Assembly (NCBI GenBank): GCA_017940245.1 | Contig: JAGAYZ010000039.1 | Location: 1 to 63,755, forward strand | Direction: 5' to 3' | Length of the DNA: 63,755 nucleotides | Source: Muribaculaceae bacterium | Lineage (GTDB): Bacteria; Bacteroidota; Bacteroidia; Bacteroidales; Muribaculaceae | Part shown: one piece after another, positions 7,215-53,644 of the stretch | Layout of the letters: every line of letters begins with the position of its first letter | How positions within the stretch are numbered: position 1 is the first letter of the stretch | Made by a program: the position numbers and the translations under genes | The notes under the pieces: generated by a model | Told to the model about the DNA's origin: nothing | Seen by the model: the letters and a program-made list of their open reading frames with translations, nothing else | Databases searched by the model: none

Positions 7215-7266
7215 GATGAGATCGGCGACACGTCGCATGGCAGCACATTATTAATTGTTCATTGTT
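7215..7266 (-). repeat. AT-rich intergenic element, copy 1 (downstream of a dockerin gene)
   Basis: On the minus strand, right after the phosphoesterase stop, the sequence reads AACAATGAACAATTAATAAT, then gtgctgccatgcgacgtg and a gatc end. A closely similar block follows the dockerin-tailed GH30 gene at 48271-48350. Confidence 0.45.
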
Positions 7267-9913: not shown

Positions 9914-9915
9914 GG

Positions 9916-10311
9916 TTATCTAAAAGTGTTGCGCAGCGAGAATGCCTCGCCTTGAATGTAAAGTTTGATGTGTCGTGGCTCGCCGGTAGTGACCAGGGTG
10001 ATGGTCTTGTCGATAATGCCAGCCGGTCGCCCGGCGGTGTCGTAGGTGACCGTGACCACTCCCTTTTCGCCCGGGGCGATGGGTTGCTTGGGGTAGGAGG
10101 GAATGGTGCATCCGCACGACGACAGGGCACCGATGATGCTCACGTCGCCATCGCTCACGTTGGTGAACTCAAACCGGCATTGCTGGTAGCCGCTGTCGAC
10201 CGTGACACGGCCCAGGTCGCAGATGGTGTCGTTAAACTCCAAGCATTGGCCGCTTGCTGCCATGAACGGCAGCAGCAGTGCCATGATGCAATATGTGCGT
10301 AGCCATCTCAT
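9916..10311 (-). CDS. DUF1573 secreted protein
   Basis: From the ATG at 10311 the product is about 131 residues: a signal peptide (MRWLRTYCIMALLLPFMAAS), then a single beta-sandwich DUF1573 domain with the hallmark ALSSCGCTIPSY cysteine pair, followed by PIAPGEKGVVTVTYDT and a C-terminal strand block. The domain is common in Bacteroidetes periplasmic proteins and its role is unknown. A GTG at 10320 would overlap the GH3 stop by 3 bp and add three residues; the ATG keeps the signal peptide compact. The tight packing between GH3 and manA marks it as an operon member. Confidence 0.8.
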   Translation of the reverse strand: MRWLRTYCIMALLLPFMAASGQCLEFNDTICDLGRVTVDSGYQQCRFEFTNVSDGDVSIIGALSSCGCTIPSYPKQPIAPGEKGVVTVTYDTAGRPAGIIDKTITLVTTGEPRHIKLYIQGEAFSLRNTFR

Positions 10312-10316
10312 GTGGC

Positions 10317-27703: not shown

Positions 27704-27749
27704 CAAAATTATCCTAATCCGATAACAACAAATGGCACGCATCATTCAA
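27704..27749 (-). promoter_or_regulatory. Operon promoter with regulon motif (site E)
   Basis: On the minus strand the -7 box TAATTTTG (27711-27704) lies 46 bp before the ATG, with a TTTG -33 candidate (27732-27729) 17 bp upstream. The 19-bp motif TTGAATGATGCGTGCCATT (27749-27731) starts exactly 38 bp before the -7 box. It matches site A (44457) at 13 of 19 positions. Confidence 0.65.
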
Positions 27750-27800
27750 AAAATAGCAAAATCGGTTCACAACGAGCCCCCGCGCTCATTATGAACCGAT
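27745..27800 (-). terminator. Intrinsic terminator of the GH2-GH92 unit
   Basis: In the minus-strand RNA the 17-nt arms (27800-27784 and 27777-27761) pair throughout, using two G-U wobbles, around a 6-nt loop, followed by TTTGCTATTTTTTG. On the plus strand the same two positions are A-C mismatches, so the hairpin is tuned to minus-strand transcription. Confidence 0.7.
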
Positions 27801-27938
27801 AAAAGTTCCTTTTGGCCTCTCTTATTGTGTCATCAACAATATGTAACCCCCCTTTTTAAGGTAGCTATTTAGCATACAATTTTGCTAAATATTATCGGCA
27901 TTTGCATGATGCCTTGTTATGGTATTGAGCTACTGTTG

Positions 27939-30173
27939 TTAGGGAGTGGGAGCCATGACGAAGGTGATGTGGCGGGCGGCCAACAGCGCATCGTGGGTGA
28001 TGAATGGCTCGGTGAGCTCGCTGCCGTCGACCAGCACGCGTTCCACATAGGGTCGCTCGGGCGACAGGCCGCGGGCCTCGATGGTGAGGTCGTGCGGCAT
28101 GGGGCGGGCCATACGCAGGGTGACCTGTGGGAACTGTGGCGCACCCAGGGCATAGGTGTTACTGCCCGGGGTGACGGGATAGAATCCCATCACCGAGAAG
28201 ATGTACCAGGCCGACATCTGGCCACAGTCGTCGTTGCCGTTGATGCCATCGGGGGCATTGCGGTAGTTGACCGTGGTGTGCCGGCGCACAAGCTGCTGGC
28301 ACTTGTGGGGCTGGCCGCAATAGTTGTATAGATAAATGTAATGATGCCCAGGCTCGTTGTCGTGCCGGTAGTGATTTTCGTCGAAGTTGCGGTCGAGCAT
28401 TCGGGCAAAGGCATCGCGCCCCCCCATCATCTCTATCATGCCGGGGATGTCGTGCAGCACGCAGAACAGGTAGGTCCATTTCGACCCTTCGGTGAGTCCG
28501 CGGCGGTTGTGGTCGTCGAGGTCAATCCAGTCGCCGCCATAGTTGCGTGGCAGCATGAATCCGCGCTCGCTGTTGTAGACGTTGCGGTAGTTTTGGCTCC
28601 AGCGCATGAGTTGGTCGTAGTCGTGTGCTGTGCCCAGGTCTCGTGCCAGCTGGGCCACGCACCAGTCGTCGTAGGCATATTCCAGTGTGCGCGAGAGCGA
28701 CTCGGCGGTGCGGTCGTCGGGCACGTAGCCGATGCTGTGGTAGTAGCTGGCTCCGGCGCGTGCCTGGAAAGCCGTCCAGCGGTCGCGGTCGCCATATCGG
28801 CGCTGGGTGTCGCCATCGGGCGGCACCATGGCATCTTTGCGCAAGGCCTCGTAGGCCAGGCGGGTGTCGTAGTCGCGCAGTCCCTTCATGTAGGCATCGG
28901 CGATGACGGCATCGGCATGAGTGCCTATCATGATGTTGGTGTAGCCGGGATTAGGCCAAATGGGGAGCCATCCGCCCTGCTGGTACATTTGCAGCAGAGA
29001 GGTGATCCATTGACAGGTGAGGTCGGGCTCGATAAGAGTCATGAGCGGATGTAGTGCGCGGAAGGTGTCCCACAGCGAGAAGTCGTTGTGGCTGGTGCCC
29101 TGGTGCACCTGGTCGTCGAAAGCACTATAATAACGTCCACCCTCGGAAAACTCGCGGGGGAACAAATAGCTGTGATACATGGCGGTGTAGAAATTCACCA
29201 TGTCGTCGTGCGAGATGCCACTTACCCCGATTTTGCTCAGTTTTTCTTCCCACTGGTCGTGGGTCGTGCGGGCCAGTGTGTTGAAGTTCCATCCGGGCAG
29301 TTCCTGCTCCATGTTGGCGCGTGCTTGGTCGATGCTGATGAACGAGGTGCCTACTTGCATGGTCACCGTGGTGGCGCGTGGTGTGGCAAACTCGGCGTAG
29401 GCTCCCATGCGCGTTCCATATTCTTGAAGCGAGCGGGGATGAATCTCGTCGCCCGTCCATGTGCCGTAATGTGTGATGGGGCGGTCGAACTTGATGACGA
29501 AATATCCGTTGAAATTCTTTAGTTCAGGTCCCAGCTGTGCCGATTGTCGATCGGGGTTGTAGCCGATGATTTCATTGCGCTCGGGGTCGATCTTCACCCA
29601 GCCTTTGAGCGAGCGCAGTCGCGGGCCGTAGTCGTTGCACCAGTCGTTCAACCCGGGATTTAGGTTGATGCCCTGCACGATGATGCGCGAGTGTGAGCTC
29701 TTAGCAAAGGTGACCTTGATCAGCGCGCATCGGCTCGATGCCGTAACCAGGGCTTTGAGAGGCTTCCCTTCCTGCGAGTTGAGCGTGACGGAGTACTGGT
29801 GCGGTACGGCATGCTCGTTGCGGTGGCTATAGGGCAGCGCGCGAGCTTCGGGCAGGGTGAGGACGCGCTCGCCCTGCTGCGGCATGATGCTCACGTAGCC
29901 ATAGTCGCCCATCCACACCGTGGGCTGATGCGATGCCATGATGCCCATCAGGCAAGTGTCGTCGTAGACGTAGGCCATGGTGCCCATGCGGTTTTCACGC
30001 GTCTGTGGCATCATCTTGGTCATGGCGTGTGGCGGTCCCACAAATGGCGCTGTGCCGCCCTCGCCCTTGATGGCGGTGCCTATGAGTGGGTTCACGTAGT
30101 CGGTGAGCGACCGTGCTTGGGTGCCCAGTAACAGTGTGCCTAAGCACAGGGTGGTGAGGAAGAGTCGTTTCAT
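27939..30173 (-). CDS. GH92 alpha-mannosidase (NEPGHH type)
   Basis: From the ATG at 30173 the product is about 744 residues with a signal peptide (MKRLFLTTLCLGTLLLGTQA). GH92 motifs: YVNPLIGTAIKGEGGTAPFV, FYTAMYHSYLFP, FSLWDTFRALHPL, WLPIWPNPGYTNIMIGTHAD, DDWCVAQLARDLG, YRHDNEPGHHYIYLYNYCGQ with probable general-acid Glu607, and INGNDDCGQMSAWYIFSVMG with the catalytic-base and calcium region. These are the classical motifs, in contrast to the diverged GH92 at 15749. The start was chosen 2 bp after the GH2 stop; an upstream ATG at 30197 would overlap GH2 by 22 bp and lacks a good signal. It exo-cleaves alpha-mannosides. Confidence 0.92.
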   Translation of the reverse strand: MKRLFLTTLCLGTLLLGTQARSLTDYVNPLIGTAIKGEGGTAPFVGPPHAMTKMMPQTRENRMGTMAYVYDDTCLMGIMASHQPTVWMGDYGYVSIMPQQGERVLTLPEARALPYSHRNEHAVPHQYSVTLNSQEGKPLKALVTASSRCALIKVTFAKSSHSRIIVQGINLNPGLNDWCNDYGPRLRSLKGWVKIDPERNEIIGYNPDRQSAQLGPELKNFNGYFVIKFDRPITHYGTWTGDEIHPRSLQEYGTRMGAYAEFATPRATTVTMQVGTSFISIDQARANMEQELPGWNFNTLARTTHDQWEEKLSKIGVSGISHDDMVNFYTAMYHSYLFPREFSEGGRYYSAFDDQVHQGTSHNDFSLWDTFRALHPLMTLIEPDLTCQWITSLLQMYQQGGWLPIWPNPGYTNIMIGTHADAVIADAYMKGLRDYDTRLAYEALRKDAMVPPDGDTQRRYGDRDRWTAFQARAGASYYHSIGYVPDDRTAESLSRTLEYAYDDWCVAQLARDLGTAHDYDQLMRWSQNYRNVYNSERGFMLPRNYGGDWIDLDDHNRRGLTEGSKWTYLFCVLHDIPGMIEMMGGRDAFARMLDRNFDENHYRHDNEPGHHYIYLYNYCGQPHKCQQLVRRHTTVNYRNAPDGINGNDDCGQMSAWYIFSVMGFYPVTPGSNTYALGAPQFPQVTLRMARPMPHDLTIEARGLSPERPYVERVLVDGSELTEPFITHDALLAARHITFVMAPTP

Positions 30174-30175
30174 CG

Positions 30176-32176
30176 TTATTCTACTTGTAGTGTCCATTTA
30201 CATTGATCGGTTACCGGAGTGTCCTGCTCGGCTGTGATGCCGCGTGCCTGGATGTCGTTTTCTCCGGCCCGCAGCTTCACTTGTCGGGCCACAAATACCC
30301 CCAGCCCACGGCTCTCGACGTGCACGGGCACGTCGTTGACGGTGAGGTGCACGGCCTCACAGTTGCTATAGATCTTTACATCGGTGATGGCCTCGGTTCG
30401 GGGCGTGTGGCGGCGGCTGGTGATGTGCACCATGGGTGTTTTCGACCAGTTGGCCTGATAAAAGTAATAAGCGTCTTTGCGCGTGAGTCGGTCGTAGGTT
30501 ACCAGCCCCTTGTCGTTGATGCCCAAGCGGTCGCCCTCGTGCCGCGATGCACTGGCAAAGTCAAACATGTTCCACACAAACGAGCCCCACACATAGGGCC
30601 GCTTGTCGATTTCGCGGTAATTGCCTTCATGCACGATGGCCTGCCACTCCTCGGGGTGCCAGTCGCCGTCGGTTTTCGGCGCTTTGTCGATGTGCTGGTC
30701 GTGCTGGTGGATGCTGGCTCCCGCACCATACTCGCTGATGCCGATGGCTCGGTTTTTCTGAGGGTCATATTTCCAGTCGATGGCCCATTGCATGGTGGCC
30801 GGGTCGGCCCAGTACCACCCGGGATAGGTGTTGTAGGCCATGATGTCGGTCATGTCGTTCTCGGGTCGGCCATCGTTGTTGGCGGCTGCCACGGTGAGTC
30901 GTGTGGGGTCTTCGCTGTGAGCCAGGTCGTTGAGCTGCTCCACCAACTCATGCGGACGGTCGGGGCCACCCAGCTCGTTGAACAGGCTCCAACAGAAGAT
31001 AGAGCAGTGGTTGTAGTTCTGGCGAATCAGTTCGGTGAGTTGCTGGCGTCCATTGGCGTCGAAAGCATAGTGGCGCGTGCCGTGGCCGATGTAGGGAATC
31101 TCGGCCCATACCAGCATGCCGGCTTCATCGCACAAGGTGTAGAAATCATTGGCGTGCGGGTAGTGTGCCAGACGGATGCAGTTAGCCCCCATCTGCTTGA
31201 TGATTTCCATGTCTTCGGTATGCTCTTTGTGGGTGATGGCCCATCCCATGCCATCGCGGTCTTGATGGCGGTTCACGCCTCGCAACGGAAATGACTTTCC
31301 GTTGAGGAAGAACCCCTTGTGGGCGTCAACTGTGTAATATCTGAGTCCGATGTGCTGCGACAAGGTGTCGATGACCTGGTCGCCGCGCATCAACTCGAAG
31401 AAAAATCGGTGTTGTGCCGGGTGATTGATGCCATCCCACAATTCTGGTTGCTCGATGTCTATTTGCTGTTCCAAACTCAGGAATCTGCCATCGAGGGCCG
31501 CGGCGGCAGTGCGCTTTGTGGCTGTTACACGCCCGTCGGGGGCAAAGACAGTGGTGCGCAGCGCATAGCCCTTGTCGGTTGCGCCATCCACCTTGGCCAG
31601 GATGCTCAGGTGGGCATTGTCGCGGTTCACGCTTGTCTGGCTCACGTAGATGCCACAGGAAGCGTGGTCTTGCACTGTGAAACTCACTGCGGGCACGGTG
31701 ACCAGCGCCACAGGCCGATAGATGCCGCCGAAGATGGTGAAATCGCCATCCAGTGGCATGATGAAGCTGTCGGGAGCATTGGTTACTTCCACGGTGAGCG
31801 TGTTGCCCTTGTCGCGCAACAGGCTGGTGATTTCGAAGCAGAACGCCGTGAACGCACCGCGGTGCCGTCCCAGCCGCTTGCCGTTGAACCACACGGTGGC
31901 ATCCTGGCTCACGGCCTCAAAACGCACAAATGTGCGCTCGCCCTGTCGTGCCGCCGCAGGTGCGTCGAAGTGGCATCGATAGGTGGCCGGGCCACGATAG
32001 TAGTCGGGCCTGGTGCCATCGGCCGCATTCCAGGAGTGCGGAATGGTCACGGCCTCCCAAGTGCCGCCGGCCTTGCAGAAAGTCCATTGACGGTCAAGTG
32101 GAGTCACCGATCGAGCCTGTACGCAGGCAATGGTTAAAAACAACGTGATTAGAGCGATGAAATACTTGCTGGTCAT
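30176..32176 (-). CDS. GH2 beta-galactosidase-family enzyme
   Basis: From the ATG at 32176 the product is about 666 residues with a signal peptide (MTSKYFIALITLFLTIACVQ). Domains: sugar-binding jelly roll (about 30-165, VTIPHSWNAADG, RFEAVSQDATVWFNGKRLG), immunoglobulin-like sandwich (about 170-280), and a TIM barrel with LRGVNRHQDRDGMGWA, NCIRLAHYPHANDFY, general-acid Glu401 in FCWSLFNELGG and nucleophile Glu482 in IGISEYGAGAS; a short C-terminal beta domain follows. Beta-galactosidase is the likeliest activity. It is shorter than E. coli LacZ and lacks its fifth domain. It leads a two-gene unit with GH92 and is divergent from the HTCS gene. The -7 box at 32198-32205 overlaps the longer possible start (32200), so the start at 32176 is preferred. 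Confidence 0.88.
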   Translation of the reverse strand: MTSKYFIALITLFLTIACVQARSVTPLDRQWTFCKAGGTWEAVTIPHSWNAADGTRPDYYRGPATYRCHFDAPAAARQGERTFVRFEAVSQDATVWFNGKRLGRHRGAFTAFCFEITSLLRDKGNTLTVEVTNAPDSFIMPLDGDFTIFGGIYRPVALVTVPAVSFTVQDHASCGIYVSQTSVNRDNAHLSILAKVDGATDKGYALRTTVFAPDGRVTATKRTAAAALDGRFLSLEQQIDIEQPELWDGINHPAQHRFFFELMRGDQVIDTLSQHIGLRYYTVDAHKGFFLNGKSFPLRGVNRHQDRDGMGWAITHKEHTEDMEIIKQMGANCIRLAHYPHANDFYTLCDEAGMLVWAEIPYIGHGTRHYAFDANGRQQLTELIRQNYNHCSIFCWSLFNELGGPDRPHELVEQLNDLAHSEDPTRLTVAAANNDGRPENDMTDIMAYNTYPGWYWADPATMQWAIDWKYDPQKNRAIGISEYGAGASIHQHDQHIDKAPKTDGDWHPEEWQAIVHEGNYREIDKRPYVWGSFVWNMFDFASASRHEGDRLGINDKGLVTYDRLTRKDAYYFYQANWSKTPMVHITSRRHTPRTEAITDVKIYSNCEAVHLTVNDVPVHVESRGLGVFVARQVKLRAGENDIQARGITAEQDTPVTDQCKWTLQVE

Positions 32177-32197
32177 GAGAGTCTTTTTTTTATGCTG

Positions 32198-32205
32198 CAA
32201 AAATA
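32198..32205 (-). promoter_or_regulatory. GH2-GH92 promoter, -7 box TATTTTTG
   Basis: The minus strand reads TATTTTTG, matching TAnnTTTG, 21 bp upstream of the chosen GH2 ATG. The 38-bp-upstream position does not carry the 19-bp motif. A lone partial match (ATGAAACAATGGTG) lies on the plus strand at 32247-32260. Confidence 0.5.
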
Positions 32206-32345
32206 GTTCTTATTGTTGTGATGAACTTTATTTTTTGTAGACAAATATGAAACAATGGTGCAGAAATGGCTATTGAGTAACCATGAGTCCATTTTTTTAC
32301 GACTAAATTGCTATTTTTTGGGAGATTTGTTTTGACAATAAGTGC

Positions 32346-32353
32346 TAATTTTG
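32346..32353 (+). promoter_or_regulatory. HTCS promoter, -7 box TAATTTTG
   Basis: TAATTTTG lies 27 bp before the HTCS ATG. TTTG at 32326-32329 is a candidate -33, 16 bp upstream. The 204-bp divergent gap contains no other gene. Confidence 0.5.
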
Positions 32354-32380
32354 CCCGTGTCATAATTCAAGATTTTTTTA

Positions 32381-35300
32381 ATGAAAAAAGTCACTGTCAT
32401 ATTGTTGTTTCTGCTGGTGTTTTTGAAGCCCGTCCTGGGCCAAAACTACCCCTACAGATATTATTTCCGTAACATAGACAAGAGTGATGGTCTGTCGCAA
32501 ACCGACATTAAAGCCATCTTGCAAGACAGGCGTGGCTTCATGTGGTTCGGCACACGTAATCGTCTTAACCGTTACGATGGGCATACAATAAGGGTTTTTG
32601 ATTGTGTGGATACCAAAGCCCAAAAGAAAAACAACAATATCTCATCAATTTTCGAGGACAGCAATGGTCAGTTGTGGGTGGGCACCGACAAGGGTGTGTT
32701 TCTTCTCGACCCTGTGAGCGAGCAATTCCGTTTCGTGGGCGAGTCCACTGCCCAAGGCACGCAGATGAAAGACTGGGTGGCCGACATCAAGAGCGACACC
32801 GATGGCAATATCTGGCTAGTGTTGCCAAATCAGGGTTTGTTCCGCTATAAAAAGGGCGAAAAACTGCGTTTGTATAGTTTCGGCAGTTCGTCGCATCCCG
32901 ATTTCGGCAGCCCGCAATGTGTGTGTATTGATGGTGGTGGTCGCCTTTGGGTGGGCACCAATGGCAGTGGCGTGTGGCTTTACAACCCAAGCCAGGACCG
33001 GTTTGTGCAGTACTTGGGCAACAAGCAGGGTGAGTCGCTCATGGGTGAGAATGTTTACACCATGTGTGACTATGGCGATGACCTGGTGCTGGGCATCCAT
33101 GAGGGCAAGTTGCGTAGGCTCAACAAGCGTCGCAACACCGTTACCGATTTCAACGCCCCCCAGGTGCATTATTCCATTATTCGCGATGTGGAGTGCTATA
33201 ACGAGGAGTTGTGGGTGGGCACCCAGCGGGGTGTCTATGTCATCAATGAGCATCGAGGCACCATTCAGCACATTGAAAACGACGCAATGTGCTCTTACTC
33301 GCTTACCGACAACCAAATAGGGCGCATATATCGCGACCGTGAGGGAGGTATCTGGATAGGTACCAACCTGGGTGGCGTGAACTACTTGCCGCAAAAAGGC
33401 ATGGAATTCATGCGCTATGTGCCGCTCACCAAGCCGTTTACCATCACCAGCAAGCGCATTCGCGAGATGGTTGAAGACGAGCAGGGCAACGTGTGGATTG
33501 GCACCGACGATGCAGGCGTGAATGTGTATAATCCCATCCAGGGCACGTTCAAGGTGATAGGAAAAGACTTCGGCTCACCACTGCACAGCGAGAAGACACT
33601 GGCCATCATGCCGCATGACGGCCAGATGTGGGTGGGTTTCTTCAAAGATGGTTTTGACATTGTGTCGCCCACTACGTTTGTCGCCCGCCATTTCTCGGGC
33701 GAGATGTTACACATCAATGAGTCCAGCATCTATGCTATGTGCGAGGATGCGCAAGGCAATGTGTGGATAGGCAATGGCTGGGGCGTGTATGTGGCACCGC
33801 GAGGCAGCATGGAGTTCAAGCGCATGGACGAGTTTGGCTTTAACTATATCTACGACCTGATGGAAGACAGCGACAACAACATGTGGGTGGTGACCATGGG
33901 CAATGGCGTGTATCGCTACTCCCCCGACAGTCGCAAGGTCAAGCATTTCATGCACCGCGAGGGTGATTCGACCACGATCAGTTCTAACTCGGTGAGCAAC
34001 GTCATGGAGACGAGCCGTGGCCAGATATGGTTCTCTACCGACCGCGGTGGCGTGTGTCGCTTCAATAAAAACGACGACACGTTCACTACCTACAGTATCG
34101 AGCAGGGACTGCCCGACGATACTGGTTACAAAATATTGGAAGACAAGAACGGAATGTTGTGGTTTGGCACCAATAATGGCCTGGTCATGCTCAATCCCGC
34201 GACGGGGAAATGCCAGGTCTATACCACAAGCAACGGATTGCCAGGCAACCAGTTCAACTACAAGTCGGCTCTGAAGACGCGCAGCGGCATTTTCTATTTC
34301 GGCAGCAGCGAAGGGCTCATCTCGTTCAATCCTTATTATAGTAATAAGAACACTTATGCACCTCCCGTGTATATCACTCGATTGTGGATTAATAATAATG
34401 AGGTGTTGCCGGGTAATGACGACTCGCCGCTCACCGAGAGTCTGCTCACGGCTCAGCGCGTTGTACTCAGTCACGACCAGTCGAATATCAGCCTGGAGTT
34501 TGCCGCGCTCAGCTATGTCATGCCCGATGCCAACCGCTATCGCTACAAGATGGATGGTGTGGACAGTGACTGGATTACAGCCGAGGATAACCAGCGCGTC
34601 ACCTATGGCAATCTTGCACCGGGAAAATATGTTTTCCACGTCATGGGCAGTAATAACGACGGCGTGTGGAGCAAAGAAGAAGCACGGCTGGAGATTGTGG
34701 TCTCGCCGCCCTGGTGGCGCTCCATCTGGGCCAATATGGCCTATCTGATGCTGTTGCTGGCAGGAGTTTATGCCGCTTTCAGTTTATATAGGAAACGCAC
34801 GTTGCAGAAGTCGGCCGAGGCGCAGCGACTCTTTGAGGCCGAGAAAGAAAAAGAACTGTATCAGAACAAGATAGATTTCTTTACTAGTATTGCGCACGAG
34901 ATTCGCACACCGCTCACCCTGATCAACGGGCCGCTGGAAAACCTGCAGGAAATGTCAATCGCCGACCCCGAGATACGCCGCAACTTGAACACCATGAGCC
35001 GCAACACCAGCGACCTGATGAATCTCATCAACCAGTTGCTGGACTTCCGCAAAATGGACAGCAACAAGATGGAGATGTATTTTGTGTCGGTGAATCTGTC
35101 GTCGATTTTGCGTGAGTGGGTGAACAAGTTCACCGATATGCCTATGTCGCGCGACCGTCATGTGACACTGACGTTGCCCGAGGGCGAGGATATCTATGTG
35201 CATGCCGACCGCAACGCCCTGATCAAGGTGCTCAACAACTTGTTTTCCAACGCCATCAAGTATTCCGAGCGTGAATTTCTCATCTCGGTGTGCGTGGAAG

Positions 35301-37424: not shown

Positions 37425-37461
37425 AGACGGTGTAGGCAAGGTGGGTCGAATTTGCTATTAA

Positions 37462-37507
37462 TTGCGACCATTGCGTTACGTGGGCGACGTGCGAGGCAGT
37501 AATTTTG
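37462..37507 (+). promoter_or_regulatory. FG-GAP/GH2/esterase operon promoter with regulon motif (site D)
   Basis: TTGCGACCATTGCGTTACG (37462-37480) starts exactly 38 bp before the -7 box TAATTTTG (37500-37507), which is 41 bp before the ATG at 37549. It is the weaker type of the five sites but has identical geometry. Confidence 0.6.
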
Positions 37508-37548
37508 CGACATTGATTTTTGTTTGATTAATAAATATAGATATCGCT

Positions 37549-42422: not shown

Positions 42423-42434
42423 AACATCTAGAAT

Positions 42435-44390
42435 ATGAAAAAAACAAGATTACGTAAAACGGCTTTTTCAATGTTGGCAGGCGCTGCTCTGTCGATGCAT
42501 GCTGCCGTCACATTGCCTGCTTATTTAAGCGACAACATGGTCGTTCAACAGCAATCTAACTTGAAAATTTCTGGTCGCAGCAACCGCGCCGGCCAGGTGC
42601 AGGTGCGTGCCAGTTGGAGCAAAAAGGTGTTCACCGTGCCCATTGCAGCCGACGGTACGTTTGCTGTGAGTGTGCCCACGCCCAAAGCCGGAGGCCCGTT
42701 CCAGGTCAGCATCAACGATGGTGACGAGCTGTTGCTCAAGAATGTGCTTTCAGGCGAAGTGTGGTTTTGCTCGGGACAGAGCAACATGGAGATGCCCGTC
42801 AAAGGCTGGGGACAAGTAAAGAATTTCGAGCAGGAGCTGGCTTCGGCCAGTCACAGCGACATACGCTTGCTGCAATCGCGGCATGTGACATCACTGGTGC
42901 CTCAAAACGAGCCGCAAGTGAATGGTGGCGGCTGGGCGGTGTGCTCGGCGGCAACGGTAGAGAATTTCTCGGCCGTGGCCTATTTCTTTGCTCGCCAGTT
43001 GAGCCAGCAACTGCATGTGCCGATAGGTGTAATCGACAGTTCGTGGGGCGGCACTCCCGCCGAGGCATGGACCAGTGCCACCACCCTCACCGGTGTCATC
43101 GAGCACCAGCGCAATGCGCAGGCCATTCTAGCCGCCGGAGGCAATCGCGAAATCTTGTGCCAAAAATATGAACAAGACGTGCGCGACTGGCAGGCAGCCT
43201 ACGACCGCGCCGATGCCGGAATGCAAGGCGGCAAGCCGTTATGGGTCGATGCCGAGCAGACGGGGACAGAGTGGAACACGATGCGCTTGCCCAATGCTTG
43301 GGAATGGTGCGGCCTGAAGGAGTTCGACGGCATCGTGTGGTTTCAGAAAGTGGTCGAACTGCCCGAGCGGTGGGCCGGAAAAGAACTCACACTCAAGGTG
43401 GGTAAGGTTGACGACATGGACATCACCTGGTTCAATGGCCAGCAAGTGGGCGAAACCGATGGCTATTGGATCGTGCGCGAATATAAAGTGCCTGCCTCGC
43501 TGGTCAAGGCCGGCAAAGCCATTATCACCGTCAAGGTGAAGGACGGGAGCGGTCTGGGTGGCATCTGTGGTGATGCCGGCGACCTGTCGCTGGGCATCGG
43601 CAGCGATGTGATTTCGCTAGCGGGCGACTGGCGTTGGCACAAGGGCGTGGCGCTCGACGAGCTGCCCTACCGTGCCATTCATCCCGATCATCAGAATTAC
43701 CCGGCCAATCTGTATAACGCCATGGTGCATCCATTCCGCGACTTTGCCGTGCGCGGTGTCATCTGGTATCAGGGCGAGGAAAATGCTTCGCGCTGGGAAG
43801 GTTACACACCCTTGTTCCAAGCGCTCATCCACGACTGGCGGCACACCTGGCACAATGCCTCGATGCCGTTCTACTTCGTGCAGCTGGCCGGTTGGCAAGA
43901 AAGTGCGCCGGTGCAGCCGGCTTCGGCCTGGGCACACCTGCGCGAGGCTCAGGCTCGTGCCCTGTCGCTCGATCACACAGGCATGGCGGTGGCTATCGAC
44001 ATCGGTGAGGCCTACGATATCCATCCCAAGAACAAGCAGGAAGTAGGTCGCCGGCTGGCGCTTGCAGCCCTGTCGGACACCTATGGCAAGGGGAAGTACC
44101 AAGTGCCGCAGTGCATCGGACACCAAGTGGAGGGTAATCGAGTGATGCTCACGTTCAACCAGCCTATCACCATCGATGGCGATAAGCCCCTAGGTCTGGT
44201 GGTGGCCGGTCCCGACATGGTGTTTCACGAAGCGCAAGCCATCGTGCGAAATCAGCGACTGGAAGTGTGGTCGCCGCAGGTGACCATGCCAGTAGCCGTG
44301 AGATATGCCTGGGGAAATAATCCACCCAACAATCTGCGTGGCCGCGACGGCTTGCCCGTGGCTCCATTCCGCACCGACTCCTATCGGTAG
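42435..44390 (+). CDS. Sialate O-acetylesterase-type (SASA/DUF303) carbohydrate esterase
   Basis: The 651-residue product has a signal peptide (MKKTRLRKTAFSMLAGAALS). The SGNH-hydrolase core is split: block I VWFCSGQSNMEMPVKGWGQ with catalytic Ser116, VIDSSWGGTPAEAWTS, then a GH2-like jelly-roll insertion (about 280-400, FDGIVWFQKVVELPERWAGK, ITWFNGQQVGETDGYW), then GVIWYQGEENASRW and the Asp/His block IDIGEAYDIHPKNKQEVGRR. It should remove O-acetyl groups from a decorated glycan; sialic acid is only the name-giving substrate. It starts 12 bp after the GH2 gene, so it is the third gene of that operon. No T9SS or dockerin tail is present. Confidence 0.88.
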   Translation: MKKTRLRKTAFSMLAGAALSMHAAVTLPAYLSDNMVVQQQSNLKISGRSNRAGQVQVRASWSKKVFTVPIAADGTFAVSVPTPKAGGPFQVSINDGDELLLKNVLSGEVWFCSGQSNMEMPVKGWGQVKNFEQELASASHSDIRLLQSRHVTSLVPQNEPQVNGGGWAVCSAATVENFSAVAYFFARQLSQQLHVPIGVIDSSWGGTPAEAWTSATTLTGVIEHQRNAQAILAAGGNREILCQKYEQDVRDWQAAYDRADAGMQGGKPLWVDAEQTGTEWNTMRLPNAWEWCGLKEFDGIVWFQKVVELPERWAGKELTLKVGKVDDMDITWFNGQQVGETDGYWIVREYKVPASLVKAGKAIITVKVKDGSGLGGICGDAGDLSLGIGSDVISLAGDWRWHKGVALDELPYRAIHPDHQNYPANLYNAMVHPFRDFAVRGVIWYQGEENASRWEGYTPLFQALIHDWRHTWHNASMPFYFVQLAGWQESAPVQPASAWAHLREAQARALSLDHTGMAVAIDIGEAYDIHPKNKQEVGRRLALAALSDTYGKGKYQVPQCIGHQVEGNRVMLTFNQPITIDGDKPLGLVVAGPDMVFHEAQAIVRNQRLEVWSPQVTMPVAVRYAWGNNPPNNLRGRDGLPVAPFRTDSYR

Positions 44391-44456
44391 TCGAAGTGCT
44401 CGGCTCAATCCATCCTGAAGTTGAGAGGCTGGCAGATTGTTCCAAATTGTCATTTT

Positions 44457-44502
44457 TTGAAACAATCGTGTTATTATATCTAATGTTCCTGCTCTACTTT
44501 TG
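44457..44502 (+). promoter_or_regulatory. Promoter with regulon motif (site A)
   Basis: TTGAAACAATCGTGTTATT (44457-44475) begins 38 bp before the -7 box TACTTTTG (44495-44502), and the ATG follows at 44555. The core AACA-atcg-TGTT is an inverted repeat. The 3' part of the motif ends 19 bp before the -7 box, about where a -33 element would sit. Confidence 0.72.
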
Positions 44503-44554
44503 CAAGCGAGAACAATGAGAAAAAAAATGAGTTAAACATTTAATAATTAATTGC

Positions 44555-46339
44555 ATGAAAAAGAACTTTACTTTTCTGCTGGGCTTGGCCGCGCTGATGA
44601 TGCCATCGGCTGCATGGGCCGGCGACCTGGTGATTCCCTGTAATGAGAACAGTGGAGTCGTCATTGAGAACAGTGGTGTTTTTGATCGTCTGAATCAGAA
44701 CATCGGTAACACCAGTGCCGACACTCGCGTTTATCTGGGCGAGGTGGACTTCGGCAGTGGCAACAACTATCAGGCCACCAGCATCGTGCTGGGCAACGGC
44801 TGGTATGTAGACGGCTGGGCAATCCTGCACGCAGGTGACACGTATGAAAATTCTGTGCCCTTCACCCAGATGGGTATCAACGAGACTGGCGGTTATCAGC
44901 ACTATCAGGTGTTTGGTGCCAATATGGCCTACAATGCCGTAGATCCTGCTGAGCTTTCGGGTGGTGGTCCCGCCATCGAAGGCATCACCTTCAGCCAGCC
45001 TACAGGCAAGAAGAAAGTGTGGCTCACCTTTGTGGGTGGTGCCGGCAACATTCGCTCGGTCACCTTCCGCGAGCAAGCCCTGCAGCCCACCGACTTTGTG
45101 AACGTAGAGGGCGACTGGGACAGCGGCATCCGTCTGCTCAATCCCAACGAGAAACCCGGTTATGAGCTGATTTCGACCAAGGTCTATTCTATCGACTCTG
45201 AGCCTGCTGTGCCCATCGGTGAGGGAACCGACTTCCCCGACACCCGCATCGACACCTCGGCTAATGCTCAAAACGCTTGGGGCTGGACCCACGAAGGCTT
45301 TATCGCCGACTATGGAACCATCGACTTCGGCAATGGCAAGTTCAAACAGATTATTCTGTACATGACCCACTGGGGTGCCAACATCTATGACTACCTGGAG
45401 TTCTATCTGGACGAGGTGACCGAGTCTAAGAAGTTCCTCACCGTGTGGTCGGGTCTGGACCTGGCCAACAATGGCCCGTATCCTTTCGCCAAGAATCTGC
45501 CGGTGATTACCGGTCGGCACAAGGTGCTGGTGAAGTGGATTGGTGGTAGCACCAACCTGCAGGCTGTGGAATTCTGCGAGCAGCAGTTGTGGCCGTTGCA
45601 CGTGGATTGCGGTGTTGAGCTCGAAGACGTGGAGCCTTCGCCCGAAGCCTTCCATTTCACATTTGAGAATTGTCCCGAAGGCCAAGGTAATCCTTGGGGC
45701 TATGAGGTGAAGTGCAAGGGGCGGTATGAAGCTGCCGGCAACATTGGTTACACCGGCAACGGTACAGTGATCGACTTCTATGGCGACGGCGACGGCGTGG
45801 ACTTCGGTAACGGAGGCTGGAAGCGCATCATCGTGAACCACTCGAGCGAACCCTCATGGATTGGAACCGTAGACGTGTCTAACTTCTCGTTCTACATCGA
45901 CCTGGATCCCGACTTCATCTACACACCCGAAGACTGGGAGCAGAACCTGCCCGCCATTCTCGAGGGTCACGAGCCCGTGGCTGTGGTGCGTCTGCAAGGA
46001 ACAGGGGCCTGGAGTGTGCGCAAGCGCACCGCCGGTGAATTCCTGGTGAACGTGACCGGCAAGCACGACCTGTTCATGGTCTACAACACGCCTAACAGCA
46101 GCACCGGTGCCAACGTGTTCGACATCTGGCTGGATCCCGTGGGTGCAGCTCCCCAGCTGCCCGTGGGCGACGTGGACGGTGATGGCAAGGTGGATGTTTC
46201 CGACGTGAACGCCGTGATCAACATCATCCTCAAGACCAAAGACACGACCGACTTCGTGGGCAATCCCGATGTGGACGGCGATGGCAAGGTGGATGTTTCC
46301 GACGTGAATGCTATCATCAACATCATCTTGAAAGTGTGA
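44555..46339 (+). CDS. Multi-CBM secreted protein with dockerin-like tail
   Basis: The 594-residue product has a signal peptide (MKKNFTFLLGLAALMMPSAA). Three successive beta-sandwich repeats (about 25-185, 195-350, 365-525) carry CBM6-like features: GEVDFGSGNNYQATSIVLGN, YGTIDFGNGKFKQIILYMTH and GDGVDFGNGGWKRIIVNHSS, each ending near a GKHDLFMVYNT or KKVWLTFVGGAGNIRSVTF strand. There is no catalytic domain. Residues about 535-594 form a duplicated dockerin-like module (GDVDGDGKVDVSDVNAVINI and DVDGDGKVDVSDVNAIINII). It probably binds glycan at the surface and docks to an unknown partner. It is paralogous to the protein at 48761, which has another tail. Site A lies upstream; a hairpin follows before the GH30 gene. 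Confidence 0.78.
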   Translation: MKKNFTFLLGLAALMMPSAAWAGDLVIPCNENSGVVIENSGVFDRLNQNIGNTSADTRVYLGEVDFGSGNNYQATSIVLGNGWYVDGWAILHAGDTYENSVPFTQMGINETGGYQHYQVFGANMAYNAVDPAELSGGGPAIEGITFSQPTGKKKVWLTFVGGAGNIRSVTFREQALQPTDFVNVEGDWDSGIRLLNPNEKPGYELISTKVYSIDSEPAVPIGEGTDFPDTRIDTSANAQNAWGWTHEGFIADYGTIDFGNGKFKQIILYMTHWGANIYDYLEFYLDEVTESKKFLTVWSGLDLANNGPYPFAKNLPVITGRHKVLVKWIGGSTNLQAVEFCEQQLWPLHVDCGVELEDVEPSPEAFHFTFENCPEGQGNPWGYEVKCKGRYEAAGNIGYTGNGTVIDFYGDGDGVDFGNGGWKRIIVNHSSEPSWIGTVDVSNFSFYIDLDPDFIYTPEDWEQNLPAILEGHEPVAVVRLQGTGAWSVRKRTAGEFLVNVTGKHDLFMVYNTPNSSTGANVFDIWLDPVGAAPQLPVGDVDGDGKVDVSDVNAVINIILKTKDTTDFVGNPDVDGDGKVDVSDVNAIINIILKV

Positions 46340-46373
46340 ACTAAAAAGCTATTTCTAACTTGAACTCGAATTG

Positions 46374-46404
46374 CGCAAGCGCCCCCATTTGTCGGGTGCT
46401 TGCG
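46374..46404 (+). terminator. Hairpin between the multi-CBM gene and GH30
   Basis: cgcaagcgccc and gggtgcttgcg form an 11-bp stem with one wobble pair, followed by TGATTTATTT. The poor T-tract suggests a partial terminator or a stability element. No separate promoter is seen for the GH30 gene. A short tandem gggctatgggctgtgggc repeat follows (about 46420-46443). Confidence 0.45.
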
Positions 46405-46479
46405 TGATTTATTTAGTGGCTATGGGCTGTGGGCTATGGGCTGCATGATTCATAATCAATAAAAGAAGGAGGAACAGAA

Positions 46480-48282
46480 ATGAAACGAGTATTATTGGTG
46501 ATAGTGCTACAGGCTGTGATGGCGGTGAGTGCCTCGGCGGCCACTACAGTAATCAGGCTCGACCATCAGCACCAGGTGATTACAGGCTTTGGCGCGTCGG
46601 ATTGCTGGTTGGGCGACTACGTGGGACGCTATTTCTCGGGCACGATGAAAGAACGGGCCGCAAAATTGCTCTTTGCCCGCACGTTTAACCGTGGTGGCAG
46701 TCCCGAAGGCATCGGGCTGAGCACCTGGCGTGTGAACCTGGGTGCCGGTAGCGACACGCAGGGCGACGACAGCAACATCAGCGACCCCACGCGCCGCGCC
46801 GAGTGCTTCCTGAATGCCGATGGCGTCACCTACGACTGGTCGCGCGCCGCCGGGCAGCAATATTTCATGCAGAAGGCGCTGGGCTATGGTGTGGAAGAAA
46901 TGGTGCTTTTCTCCAATTCAGCTCCCATCTATTACACGGCCAACGGCAAGGCTTGCCGCACCTCGCTGCTGCCTTGGGGTGCCAACCTGCGCGATGATGC
47001 CTACGACGACTTTGCCACCTACATGGCCACTGTGGCGCGCCATTTTGTAGACTTGGGCTATCCCATTGCTTATATTTCGCCCGTCAACGAGCCGCAATAT
47101 GAATGGACCGGCGGCCAGGAAGGCACACCCTGGTATAATACCGAGGTGGCGCGCCTGGTCGGGGAACTCGATGCGGCCCTCACCGCCAAGGCGCTCTCAA
47201 CCAAGATTCTTATCCCCGAGGCCGGAAAGTGGACCTACCTCACCGACCGCAACAGTGTGCTCACCGACTGGGGCTATGATCAGATTGACCAGTTTTTCAA
47301 TCCGGCCAATGCCGGCACCTATGTGGGAAACCTGGCGCATGTGGCACAGGCGGTGGCCGGGCACAGCTACTGGACCTTCCGCACCAATAATGAACTCACT
47401 TCCACCCGCAGTGCCGTGGCCACCGCCGCCGCAGCGCGCTCGCTGCAGGTGTTCCAGTCCGAGTGGAGCATGCTCGACGAGCCGCCCACCGCTGGTGCCG
47501 GATTCCCGGCCAGGGGCTACGACGAGGCCACCTACATGGACATTGCCCTCTATATGGGCAAGGTGATTTATTGCGACATGGTCTATGCCGATGCCTCGTC
47601 GTGGAGCTACTGGACAGCTTTTGCCCAAGAGCAGTGGGGACAGAAAAACCGTTTCTATCTGCTGCGCGTTATCGCTAATGGTGATGCCGGACCCGAGAGT
47701 TACGGCGACCTGCACAGCGGTGGCACCATCGTGGACAGCCGCAACCTGTGGGTGCTGGGCAACTACTCGCGCTTCGTGAGGCCGGGTTACCGCCGCGTGC
47801 AGGTGGAGGGTGCCAGCGACTTGAACGGACTCATGGCCTCGGCCTACGTGTCGCCGGCCGGCGACGAGGTGGTGGCGGTCTATGTGAACATGGGCAGTGC
47901 TGCGGCCACGGTCTCACTGCAGGCCGACGCCGCCGATGGTCGCGCGATTTCCACCATCAAGAAATACACCACCAGCGAGTCGCTGGCCTTGCACTTCGAC
48001 AGCAGCTTGCCCACCGATTATGCCGGCGGCGACGTGGAGATTCCCGCGCGATCGGTAGTGACGCTGGTGATGGGACTGGCCGCAGAGCATAGTCACGTGC
48101 GTGGCGACCTCAACGCCGACGGCAAGGTGGATGTTTCCGACGTGAACGCGGCCATCAACATCATTTTGGGCGCAACGGCAAGCGTCGAGCTGCAAGCCGC
48201 CGGTGATGTGACGGGCGACGGCAAAGTGGATGTTTCCGACGTGAACGCCATCATCAACATCATTCTATTTAATGAACAATGA
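46480..48282 (+). CDS. GH30 (endo-beta-1,6-galactanase type) with dockerin-like tail
   Basis: The 600-residue product has a signal peptide (MKRVLLVIVLQAVMAVSASA). Motifs: VITGFGASDCWLGDYVGRYF, SPEGIGLSTWRVNLGAGSDT, YDWSRAAGQQYFMQKALGYG, MVLFSNSAPIYYTANGKACR, general-acid Glu204 in YISPVNEPQYEW, nucleophile Glu328 in LQVFQSEWSML, then WSYWTAFAQEQWGQKNRF and a beta-sandwich. The GFGASDCW and GIGLSTWR pattern is that of GH30 subfamily 5-like endo-beta-1,6-galactanases, quite unlike the two GH30 genes at 12883 and 14300. Subfamily placement is from memory. Residues about 540-600 are a dockerin-like duplication. With the GH43 at 36408 it suggests type II arabinogalactan as substrate. Confidence 0.85.
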   Translation: MKRVLLVIVLQAVMAVSASAATTVIRLDHQHQVITGFGASDCWLGDYVGRYFSGTMKERAAKLLFARTFNRGGSPEGIGLSTWRVNLGAGSDTQGDDSNISDPTRRAECFLNADGVTYDWSRAAGQQYFMQKALGYGVEEMVLFSNSAPIYYTANGKACRTSLLPWGANLRDDAYDDFATYMATVARHFVDLGYPIAYISPVNEPQYEWTGGQEGTPWYNTEVARLVGELDAALTAKALSTKILIPEAGKWTYLTDRNSVLTDWGYDQIDQFFNPANAGTYVGNLAHVAQAVAGHSYWTFRTNNELTSTRSAVATAAAARSLQVFQSEWSMLDEPPTAGAGFPARGYDEATYMDIALYMGKVIYCDMVYADASSWSYWTAFAQEQWGQKNRFYLLRVIANGDAGPESYGDLHSGGTIVDSRNLWVLGNYSRFVRPGYRRVQVEGASDLNGLMASAYVSPAGDEVVAVYVNMGSAAATVSLQADAADGRAISTIKKYTTSESLALHFDSSLPTDYAGGDVEIPARSVVTLVMGLAAEHSHVRGDLNADGKVDVSDVNAAINIILGATASVELQAAGDVTGDGKVDVSDVNAIINIILFNEQ

Positions 48283-48350
48283 ATAATTAATAATGAATAA
48301 TGAACAATGAACGATGTGCCGCAGCGCGACGTACTCGAGAATCACTGCAG
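48271..48350 (+). repeat. AT-rich intergenic element, copy 2
   Basis: It follows the GH30 stop: aatgaacaatgaataatt, aatgaacaatgaacgatg, then tgccgcagcgcgacgtac. It resembles the block on the minus strand at 7215-7266, also directly after a dockerin-encoding gene. Confidence 0.45.
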
Positions 48351-48413
48351 CAGTAACAAATTGACAAAATCAACGACGGCTTAAAACGTCCGACCAAAAA
48401 TCTAGGTGCTGCT

Positions 48414-48541
48414 TGCACGATTCATAATCAAGAAAAGAAAGAGAAACAGAAATGAAAATTGGGTCAAGTGAATCAAAAGCAATCAATCAGATTGAGTGTT
48501 ATGATAATGATTTGTGTTTTGGCGTTTCCCGCCCGGGCTGA
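48414..48541 (+). other. Relic leader and 29-codon reading frame
   Basis: About 40 bp (48414-48454) nearly repeat the leader and start of the GH30 gene at 46445-46485: gattcataatca, an A/G-rich ribosome-binding stretch, then cagaaatgaaa. From the ATG at 48452 a short frame (MKIGSSESKAINQIECYDND and nine more residues) ends at 48541 inside the terminator stem. It looks like the remnant of a deleted gene, or a very short leader peptide. Confidence 0.35.
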
Positions 48542-48576
48542 GCCAAGCAACTAGGCCGGGCGGGATAGCTTTTTTG
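48528..48576 (+). terminator. Intrinsic terminator
   Basis: cccgcccgg (48528-48536) and ccgggcggg (48556-48564) form a 9-bp GC stem followed by ATAGCTTTTTT. It closes the GH30 transcription unit before site B. The rest of the 478-bp gap holds the AT-rich element, the relic leader and the next promoter. Confidence 0.75.
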
Positions 48577-48667
48577 CATAGCGTTTCGCCAAACAGGCGC
48601 TGTTCTGGCCTTGTGCGGGTGGCTGCCGCTGTGCACGGGTGGCGTGGCGGTGGATATTTTCTATTTT

Positions 48668-48713
48668 TTGACACGATTGTTTTATTTGGTTAGAATAATC
48701 GCAAGTACTTTTG
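48668..48713 (+). promoter_or_regulatory. Promoter with regulon motif (site B)
   Basis: TTGACACGATTGTTTTATT (48668-48686) starts 38 bp before the -7 box TACTTTTG (48706-48713). A TTTG overlapping the motif end could serve as -33. The ATG is at 48761. Confidence 0.7.
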
Positions 48714-48760
48714 CCCCAGATGTTTTTATATTGTTTTTTATTAACTAAAAATCACTGAAC

Positions 48761-50674
48761 ATGAAAAAGTTTTTTACTCTATTGGCCGCTGCGGCAGCGA
48801 TGACGCTCACCGCAGGAGCCGAGACTGTGACCTTCCAGATGGGAGCTAACGACGGTGCCGTGATTCTGCAGGACGGCAAGTTCAATCCGCTGGGTTCGTT
48901 CATTGGCAACACCGGCACCAACACCATCATCGAGGTGGGTGAGGTGGATTTCGCCACAGGCGATGCCTACAAGGCTGTGAGCATCCGTTACGCCAACGGA
49001 TGGAGCAATGGCGGCAAGGCCATCATCTCGGTGGGTGCTGATGCCGACAACAGAACCGAGATTGCCCGCATGGACTTGATCAACTGGAACGACAGTTACA
49101 CCAACTTCCGCTCGCTGGGTGTCAACCTGGGTGATGTGCTTCCCACGGGTGTGCAGAAGGTGTATCTCACCTTTGAGGATCGTGCCGGTAACATTCAGGA
49201 TGTGCGCTTCTATAGTGAGGCCTTCACTGCCGACCAATTTGAGAACGGATCGCTGCTCAAGGAACCATGCAACCAGGCCGGTTATGACCAGATGGCTACA
49301 GTGCTCGACATCAATAACTCGAAACTGGTGTATTCCAGCAGCTCAGACACCCGCATCGACAATGGGTCGTGGGGCTGGACCGGCGAGGGTGTCGTGGTGA
49401 AATATGGCGACCTGGACTTCGGCAGCGGCGACTACAAGCAGGTGGTGCTTGAGCTGGCCTCGCACTGGCAGGGCGACCAGAAGGACCACAGCGTGGACGT
49501 GTATATTGACGACTACAACAACGATGCCAACAAGATTGCCAATGTGTGGACCGGTATCGATGTGAAGGCCAAACTCTATCTGGCTCGCAACATCGAGGCC
49601 ATCAGTGGCACGCACACGGTGTACCTGAAGTGGCACGGCGGCAGCGCCAACATTGCCAATGTGCACTTTGTGAAAGACTGCCTCTATTCACTGGGCAACA
49701 TCGTTGATCCTGTGGTGCTGAATCCCATCAACGAAACTCCCAGTGAGAACGCATCGCGCTACTCGTTCCGCGACGGTATGAAGAATAGCGAAGAGGCTGT
49801 GTATGTGGGTCGCGACAGTGGTCGCACCACCATCTTGAACCAGGGCCAGTGGGAAGGCAACAACGTGGGTTACACCGGTGGCCACACCGTGCTCAAGATT
49901 ACCGATGTGGACTTCGAGGACGGACGCTTCAACGAGATTCTGGTGACTCATGCCACCGGCAGCAGCTGGCTGGGTTACGTGAACGATGCCAACTTCAAGT
50001 TCTATATCGACCTGAACGAGGAAGGAGTTGACTGGGGCAATGCTCAAGCGGCCTTTGCCGATGTTGAGCCCATCGCCACAGTGTGGATGCAAGCTACTGG
50101 CGGATGGGGCAACGAGTACACCACCAAGGGCGACCTGAGCCAGGTGACCGGTGTTCACAACCTCTACATCATCTATACTGCCAGCGACGGTGCCAACGTG
50201 AAGGACATCTATCTGGATGGTCCCGCTCCCGCAGTGAAGAGCGCTATCAACTTCAATGCCGAGATGGAGAACGCTACCGTTGAGGTGCTGGTGGTCGGTG
50301 AGGCTATCGAGAGCGGTGCCGAAGTGGCCGAGGGCACTGAGGTGACTGTGGTGGTGACTCCCGCCGACGGCTACAAGGTGGCTGGCGTGACTGTGGAAAC
50401 TGCTGCTCCCAGCACTGCTGCAGGCGCACCCCGCCGTGCCGCTGTGGATGTGGAAGAGGCCGGTAACAACACCTACACCTTCGTGATGCCCGCCGAGGCC
50501 GTGACGGTGAATGTGGAAGTTGAGGAATCCGTTGTCACTGCCGTTACCGACATCAACGTGGCCAATAGTGCCGCTGTGAAGTATGTCAACGCACAGGGCC
50601 AGGTGAGCGATCGTCCGTTCCAGGGCATCAACATCGTGATCGAAGGTAACAAGGCATATAAGATTGTGAAGTAA
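48761..50674 (+). CDS. Multi-CBM secreted protein with T9SS-like tail
   Basis: The 637-residue product has a signal peptide (MKKFFTLLAAAAAMTLTAGA). Three CBM6-like repeats occupy about 20-165, 175-325 and 335-490 (GEVDFATGDAYKAVSIRYAN, YGDLDFGSGDYKQVVLELAS, ITDVDFEDGRFNEILVTHAT; also SGTHTVYLKWHGGSANIANV), matching the paralog at 44555. After them come a beta-grasp-like region (about 500-595, EVAEGTEVTVVVTPADGYKV) and the tail AVKYVNAQGQVSDRPFQGIN with a final KAYKIVK, which resembles a T9SS sorting domain. There is no catalytic domain; surface glycan binding is inferred. It is a single-gene unit: its own promoter with site B and a strong terminator behind it. Confidence 0.78.
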   Translation: MKKFFTLLAAAAAMTLTAGAETVTFQMGANDGAVILQDGKFNPLGSFIGNTGTNTIIEVGEVDFATGDAYKAVSIRYANGWSNGGKAIISVGADADNRTEIARMDLINWNDSYTNFRSLGVNLGDVLPTGVQKVYLTFEDRAGNIQDVRFYSEAFTADQFENGSLLKEPCNQAGYDQMATVLDINNSKLVYSSSSDTRIDNGSWGWTGEGVVVKYGDLDFGSGDYKQVVLELASHWQGDQKDHSVDVYIDDYNNDANKIANVWTGIDVKAKLYLARNIEAISGTHTVYLKWHGGSANIANVHFVKDCLYSLGNIVDPVVLNPINETPSENASRYSFRDGMKNSEEAVYVGRDSGRTTILNQGQWEGNNVGYTGGHTVLKITDVDFEDGRFNEILVTHATGSSWLGYVNDANFKFYIDLNEEGVDWGNAQAAFADVEPIATVWMQATGGWGNEYTTKGDLSQVTGVHNLYIIYTASDGANVKDIYLDGPAPAVKSAINFNAEMENATVEVLVVGEAIESGAEVAEGTEVTVVVTPADGYKVAGVTVETAAPSTAAGAPRRAAVDVEEAGNNTYTFVMPAEAVTVNVEVEESVVTAVTDINVANSAAVKYVNAQGQVSDRPFQGINIVIEGNKAYKIVK

Positions 50675-50711
50675 TGGTCACATTCTATTATTAGGTTATT
50701 CTTTTGAATCA

Positions 50712-50743
50712 GGGCTTGTCTCCAGTGAGGCAGGCCCTTTTTT
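50712..50743 (+). terminator. Intrinsic terminator
   Basis: gggcttgtct and aggcaggccc form a 10-bp stem (two wobbles, loop ccagtg), followed by TTTTTT, 37 bp after the stop at 50674. Confidence 0.75.
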
Positions 50744-50751
50744 GTTATCTT

Positions 50752-50797
50752 TTGAAACGAGCGTGTTATTTCGTGCTGAGAGATTGTGGTAATTTTG
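50752..50797 (+). promoter_or_regulatory. Promoter with regulon motif (site C)
   Basis: TTGAAACGAGCGTGTTATT (50752-50770) starts 38 bp before the -7 box TAATTTTG (50790-50797). The ATG follows at 50825. It differs from site A at only two of 19 positions. Confidence 0.72.
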
Positions 50798-53629: not shown

Positions 53630-53644
53630 ATAAAACATAAGAAT

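Follow-up and report, generated by a model that had tools for sequence, protein, structure and literature searches.

At the araBAD promoter, AraC occupies two tandem direct half-sites, I1 and I2, which lie 21 bp apart, the proximal one overlapping the -35 region. AraC is a soluble one-component regulator and the promoter is of the sigma-70 type. Here we describe a tandem element with the same spacing in a rather different setting: five promoters, A to E, of a polysaccharide utilisation locus (PUL) in a 63,755-nucleotide stretch of DNA from a Muribaculaceae bacterium (GCA_017940245.1, contig JAGAYZ010000039.1, positions 1–63,755; hereafter the window), where the promoters carry the Bacteroidota -7 box TAnnTTTG and the presumed regulator is a membrane-bound hybrid two-component system (HTCS) protein.

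Comparable sites have been described before in related bacteria. The operators predicted for 16 HTCSs of B. thetaiotaomicron are described as direct repeats in every case, with an average of 21 bp between the tandem sites (Ravcheev et al. 2013, PMC3878776), and by that description they lie, like the elements reported here, before the SusCD and enzyme operons of the HTCS-containing PUL, and sometimes before unlinked members. The present sites differ from these in coming from another organism and in standing at a single fixed distance from the -7 box, which is seen in the five promoters and in many relatives; the comparison is one of repeat architecture and spacing as given in that account. In the open-licence literature we have seen neither a fixed register for HTCS operators nor the present motif. 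The account in PMC11253607 deals with BT4124 and BT4663, HTCSs of B. thetaiotaomicron whose receiver plus AraC-type domain binds the susCD promoter of the PUL in gel shift experiments. The HTCS of the window has the same two domains and its binding to the susCD promoter is predicted. The same account describes the S/CHIP-DK contact studied in BT4124 and BT4663, of which the D-x-K part is thought to keep the unphosphorylated HTCS off DNA; in the window HTCS SHIP is retained, whereas D-x-K is replaced by S-P-S.

A tandem element at a fixed distance from the -7 box

Each of the five promoters contains a conserved element of about 32 bp, WWTTTGCTATTTTTTGMRACNATNGTGTTAT, that runs from -51 to about -20, positions being counted relative to the TAnnTTTG (-7) box. 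Four of these putative operators lie on the forward strand: A at 44444–44475 (-7 box TACTTTTG at 44495–44502), B at 48655–48686 (TACTTTTG, 48706–48713), C at 50739–50770 (TAATTTTG, 50790–50797) and D, the weakest of the five, at 37449–37480 (TAATTTTG, 37500–37507). Operator E is on the reverse strand at 27731–27762, with its -7 box TAATTTTG at 27704–27711. The genes served are those named in an initial annotation of this DNA: a SusCD operon (E), an operon for FG-GAP, glycoside hydrolase (GH) family 2 and SASA esterase proteins (D), two genes for proteins with carbohydrate-binding modules (CBMs; A and B) and a GH3/GH2-fusion operon (C). That annotation had placed a 19-bp motif exactly 38 bp before the -7 box in all five promoters, and every position and strand proved correct; C agrees with A at 17 of the 19 positions, B at 15, and E and D, which had been called weaker, at 13 and 12 respectively. 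The 19-mer, however, covers no more than the promoter-proximal part of the element and by itself fails to single out D and E: 42 places in the window outscore E and 93 outscore D.

The consensus comes from 61 aligned sites, A–E among them. For the logo these were weighted equally by six gene groups, and 10 sites with no window homologue downstream, the HTCS promoters and five sites labelled PMI or C2 were set aside. The architecture is a head-to-tail repeat with a spacing of 21 bp, as in predicted HTCS operators. Its half-sites are GYTATT (at -46) and GTGTTATT (-27 to -20), and the stretch that separates them, TTTTTTGMRAC, is conserved too; within the element there is conservation at particular G, C and A columns. 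When A–E were compared with themselves (9-mers from -47), a lag of 21 was the strongest, with 31 of 45 matches, whilst other lags between 8 and 31 gave at most 26, and the identity at lag 21 is concentrated in positions -47, -43 and -42 (0.92, 0.95 and 0.87). An inverted-repeat core, AACA-n4-TGTT, had also been proposed, but it is not conserved: it is perfect in just two of the 61 sites, and its pair complementarity (0.44–0.49) is near the 0.38–0.52 that the column compositions predict.

The 3' end of the 19-mer had been assigned to the place of the -33 element, rightly so: the proximal half (-27 to -20) covers that position, as located with the help of the account of TAnnTTTG/-33 TTTG promoters in PMC7366714. 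Its register being fixed, the element thereby overlaps the upstream core promoter element in the manner of a class-II (I1–I2-like) site, and no TTTG is conserved in that position (-24 to -21).

Chance is an unlikely cause of the five sites. In a leave-one-out test with a 30-bp matrix (-49 to -20, the -7 box excluded) scored over 127,452 window positions, held-out A, B, C and E each ranked first and D ranked second. A model built from A–E and including the box (R1) was then applied to the organism's own genome (2.70 Mb in 104 contigs, 80% complete), where the one further hit, after A–E, that stood above noise (13.9 bits, E 0.15) was the HTCS promoter (16.9 bits, E 0.017). A further model (R2) was made from 54 sites of relatives, none from the own genome; as these had been found with R1, R2 is independent of A–E in sequence but not in selection. 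In the 2.7-Mb genome its top five matches are C (45.2 bits), B (39.5), E (39.1), A (37.5) and D (27.3). The sixth, C96:98769 (20.3 bits, aligned to model positions 5–37 only), combines a half-site GCCATTTTTTG with a TATCTTTG box and was rejected as being out of register because the box falls 23 bp after the start of the half-site; the seventh is the HTCS promoter (19.8). Neither model, run over the own genome, found the motif at the same spacing before many housekeeping promoters, an outcome that the initial annotation had regarded as fatal to its proposal, and the other TAnnTTTG promoters of the window are without the element.

Conservation among relatives

Of 101 genomes in the genus, 16, the own genome included, have an orthologue of the HTCS (56–84% identical), which in one of them is partial at a contig end. 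R1 matches of at least 20 bits occur in all 16 of these genomes and in two of the 85 without a detected HTCS (Fisher p about 1e-16, relatedness ignored). Outside the own genome there are 52 such matches, in 17 genomes, and 48 precede homologues of PUL genes of the window: A1 (12), B (10), C1 (8), E1 (6, one of them only 34% identical over 117 residues), D1 (1) and the GH43 gene at 6215–7153 (11). The remaining four comprise two for which no downstream reading frame was found, one with an 83-residue frame and one before a phosphoglycerate kinase gene (named by eye), the last, at 20.6 bits, likely being a chance match. In all, 76 of the 127 listed R1 matches from other genomes were examined, made up of all 52 that reach 20 bits and 24 lower-scoring ones from HTCS-bearing genomes; 10 of these 76 have no window homologue downstream, including the phosphoglycerate kinase match and one before a likely xylose isomerase gene.

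Relatives were also scanned with the box left out of the matrix, on 11 contigs from nine genomes (363 kb) that had been chosen through R1, which contains the box, or through the HTCS. Sites of at least 13 bits precede A1 in six of six cases, B in seven of seven, C1 in six of six, E1 in five of six, but D1 in only two of nine; D1 apart, the operator is thus well conserved before orthologous operons in genomes with an orthologous HTCS. The distance to the box is conserved as well: 22 of the 26 matches of at least 20 bits have a box 19 bp on and two have one at 20 bp, whilst no box at 19 bp came from 30 column-permuted matrices, for which matches were counted from 13 bits. Gene order varies among the relatives and the sites travel with their genes. 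In 11 relatives the GH43 homologue stands behind a promoter and site of its own; in G035 and G096 it follows a metallophosphoesterase homologue, as it does in the window, where no TAnnTTTG was found near the start of GH43 (6215–7153). Across the family (347 genomes), matches above 30 bits are confined to genomes known to have the HTCS and to G347 (30.3 bits; its HTCS content was not searched), and weaker matches of 20–28 bits occur in 33 further genomes.

Several further features of the relatives' promoters were seen. The likely xylose isomerase (L078, G001:C42:3217; an AP_endonuc_2 TIM barrel by Pfam, named by eye) has a full site 28 bp upstream that scores 37.7 bits with R2, from whose training set it was absent, suggesting that in this relative the regulon extends to central xylose use. 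GH43 promoters of seven relatives (L092, L097, L105, L110, L115, L130 and L062) contain a near-palindrome, GCGACCATnGTnGCA...TGCnnCnATGGTCG, altered in some, that ends at the -7 box and is perhaps the operator of a second regulator. An ATG follows TAATTTTG after a few bases in these same seven GH43 promoters and in L093, L098, L114 and L132, a hint that the GH3 and GH43 transcripts of some relatives are leaderless. As to the GH2 promoter, the only candidate was a variant shifted by 1 bp in some close relatives (by eye), with none in the window, and it was not accepted as a site. Site-like sequences without a box are present in the GH2/HTCS intergenic region of G039 (C94 +39507, 20.8 bits) and G005 (C6 +6200, 18.8 bits).

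The HTCS and its own promoter

The presumed binder is encoded at 32381–36418 on the forward strand. Pfam recognises a Reg_prop propeller, Y_Y_Y, HisKA, HATPase, a receiver and an AraC-type helix-turn-helix, so that propeller sensor, histidine kinase, receiver and AraC domain are combined in one protein, as in an HTCS. No other Reg_prop protein was found in the 80%-complete genome, and a Pfam scan of 28 window proteins revealed no further transcription regulator. The receiver keeps SHIP; where the conserved D-x-K contact is expected, at residues about 1299–1306, the protein reads GINSPSYF (aligned by eye). Homologues in P. gordonii, X. brevis and B. salyersiae likewise depart from D-x-K (by eye).

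The promoters of the HTCS, GH2 and GH43 genes had all been listed as free of the motif. This stands for GH2 (30176–32200) and GH43 (58141), neither of which gives a match, but not for the HTCS, whose promoter is the sixth (R1) or seventh (R2) best match in the genome. Here the upstream half, TTGCTATTTTTTG, is present at 32308–32320 on the forward strand (-38 to -26 relative to the -7 box TAATTTTG at 32346–32353), 10 bp nearer to the box than in A–E. The block is kept, with small changes, in nine closely related genomes, the own genome included, and in G003 and G005 at least, members of a more distant clade, the half-site keeps its usual place at -46. A full operator was not accepted: only the upstream half is conserved, and a candidate second half-site 21 bp upstream was not convincing. 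Judged from this half-site, autoregulation of the HTCS is plausible.

A model for operator function and its alternatives

We consider it highly probable that A–E are operators of the HTCS at 32381, which would bind them as a tandem dimer and activate transcription. The initial annotation had favoured the same binder, and this protein is the likeliest one because it is the sole Reg_prop protein found, because site and HTCS co-occur as described (16 of 16 genomes versus two of 85) and because the 21-bp spacing is that of predicted HTCS operators. On the proposed mechanism, a glycan fragment would be sensed and the receiver phosphorylated, whereupon the bound dimer would recruit RNA polymerase carrying the primary sigma factor of Bacteroidota and stand in for the -33 contact that is missing, a class-II type of activation. 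Half-sites 21 bp apart are separated by two helical turns, which would place a pair of AraC-type DNA-binding domains on one face of the DNA. Domains of this type bind through two helix-turn-helices one turn apart, and a tandem pair would therefore contact four consecutive major grooves, near -58, -48, -37 and -27; three of these are strongly conserved and the outermost is weakly specified. The 19-mer would then be the site of the promoter-proximal monomer. Since the geometry is that of AraC at araBAD, activation would be the likeliest outcome by analogy, and SusCD, surface binding proteins, GH enzymes and esterase would be switched on together. The prediction of a regulon served by one operator at a fixed position is sound, given the corrected operator.

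Several observations weigh against this explanation. Co-occurrence cannot separate the HTCS from a PUL that travels with it, and a different transcription factor might instead own the operators. Candidates would include the 17 AraC-type proteins that the genome has besides the HTCS (18 HTH_18 domains in all), and the HTCS would then be merely a companion of the PUL. G028 and G040 (74% and 67% complete), in which a site precedes a GH43 homologue and no HTCS orthologue was found, would fit such a factor. Against it stand the uniqueness of the HTCS as a Reg_prop protein in the genome, the lack of further regulators among the scanned window proteins, the published repeat architecture and the conserved half-site in the promoter of the HTCS itself, and we regard it as unlikely. 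Operator D is weak, and a site went undetected at seven of nine D1 genes in the scanned contigs of relatives; two of the 26 strong box-free matches lack a box, one of them lying inside a GH2 gene; and in Xylanibacter brevis (L183) no match of at least 13 bits lies within 10 kb of the HTCS gene, the HTCS domain there having the same recognition-helix letters by eye. The S-P-S sequence of the window HTCS also counts here, since without D-x-K binding may not depend on phosphorylation, which makes room for a bound and repressing state.

Such a state is the basis of another explanation, in which the HTCS does bind but mainly represses, sitting unphosphorylated over -33 and blocking polymerase until a signal releases or remodels it. 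The retention of SHIP with S-P-S (by eye) is compatible with this, as is the overlap of the operator with the -33 position, and PMC11253607 indicates that non-consensus HTCSs possibly bind without phosphorylation and that BT2391 is a repressor. However, the -7 boxes are well conserved (the sites having been selected with a box-containing model) and no TTTG is conserved at -24 to -21, a pattern that activator-dependent promoters should show. Most HTCSs studied in other work, moreover, are activators. Repression as the main effect is thus unlikely in our judgement, though its odds overlap with those of activation by the HTCS because the binder is the same. That the element is simply a T-rich upstream feature of strong promoters is scarcely credible. 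Its richness in T and its fixed distance from the -7 box would fit such a feature, but genome-wide only A–E stand out, with the HTCS promoter and one half-site far below them; the element is missing from the other TAnnTTTG promoters of the window; matches of at least 20 bits in the genus are confined to HTCS genomes plus two; and particular G, C and A columns are conserved.

More distant HTCSs

The HTCS described above may be one case of a wider rule, by which HTCSs in general would dock at one register to TAnnTTTG (units at about -58 to -44 and -37 to -23), replacing -33, and the subfamily seen here, which is without D-x-K, would stay bound in both states, switching the promoter from repressed to activated. 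We hold this idea tentatively and think it more doubtful than not. In its favour, a more distant set of 96 promoters (after removal of near-duplicates), from 35 loci fetched with the HTCS protein, a full HTCS not being confirmed at every one, gave the highest value of 28 lags at 21, with a peak at a start of -58 (0.354 versus at most 0.318). With the relatives' box-free matrix, three of 65 matches of at least 8 bits in the distant loci have a box at exactly 19 bp, compared with a mean of 0.025 and a maximum of 1 for 40 permuted matrices; these are small numbers. Two of the three are in Bacteroides salyersiae and one precedes a 999-residue SusC-like frame (by eye) that follows the Parabacteroides gordonii HTCS. 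With so few hits, we do not accept the motif itself as a general feature of the surroundings of more distant HTCSs. If the general register holds, HTCS operators across Bacteroidota could be read outward from the -7 box.

The PUL and its proposed control

The genes 3' of the five sites form one large PUL with a single HTCS (32381–36418), whose gene is co-located with susC and susD, as in HTCS-controlled PUL regulons. The E operon (6215–27654, reverse strand) would encode a 701-residue protein, a TIG/NHL protein, SusC (21026–24118), SusD (18982–20991), a BT_3987-like protein, GH92, two GH30 proteins, GH3, PMI, a metallophosphoesterase-dockerin protein and, as its last gene, GH43 (6215–7153). 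This grouping is predicted from a single strand and gaps that are mostly small: 112 bp precede GH43, and a 404-bp gap at 9913–10317 contains a 134-residue frame. On the forward strand are the D operon (37549–44390; FG-GAP, GH2 and SASA esterase), the A operon (44555–48282; a CBM6-like/dockerin protein and GH30/dockerin), the B gene (48761–50674; a triple CBM6 protein) and the C operon (50825–57865; GH3-PA14 and GH2-FG-GAP-dockerin). Type I dockerin domains are present in four PUL proteins (7265–8914, 44555–46339, 46480–48282 and 53645–57865). A 1033-residue frame at 432–3533, adjoining a GH3 gene, has no Pfam match at E 0.001.

Taken together, these results would provide a specific recognition sequence and a regulon for an HTCS from a little-studied group of Bacteroidales, tying about 20 genes to one sensor. 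The enzymes, together with the likely xylose isomerase gene that has a site in one relative, hint at mannose- and possibly xylose-containing glycans as the substrate. The register rule, with the operator at -51 to -20 and a 19-bp gap to TAnnTTTG, could help to predict the targets of HTCSs elsewhere.

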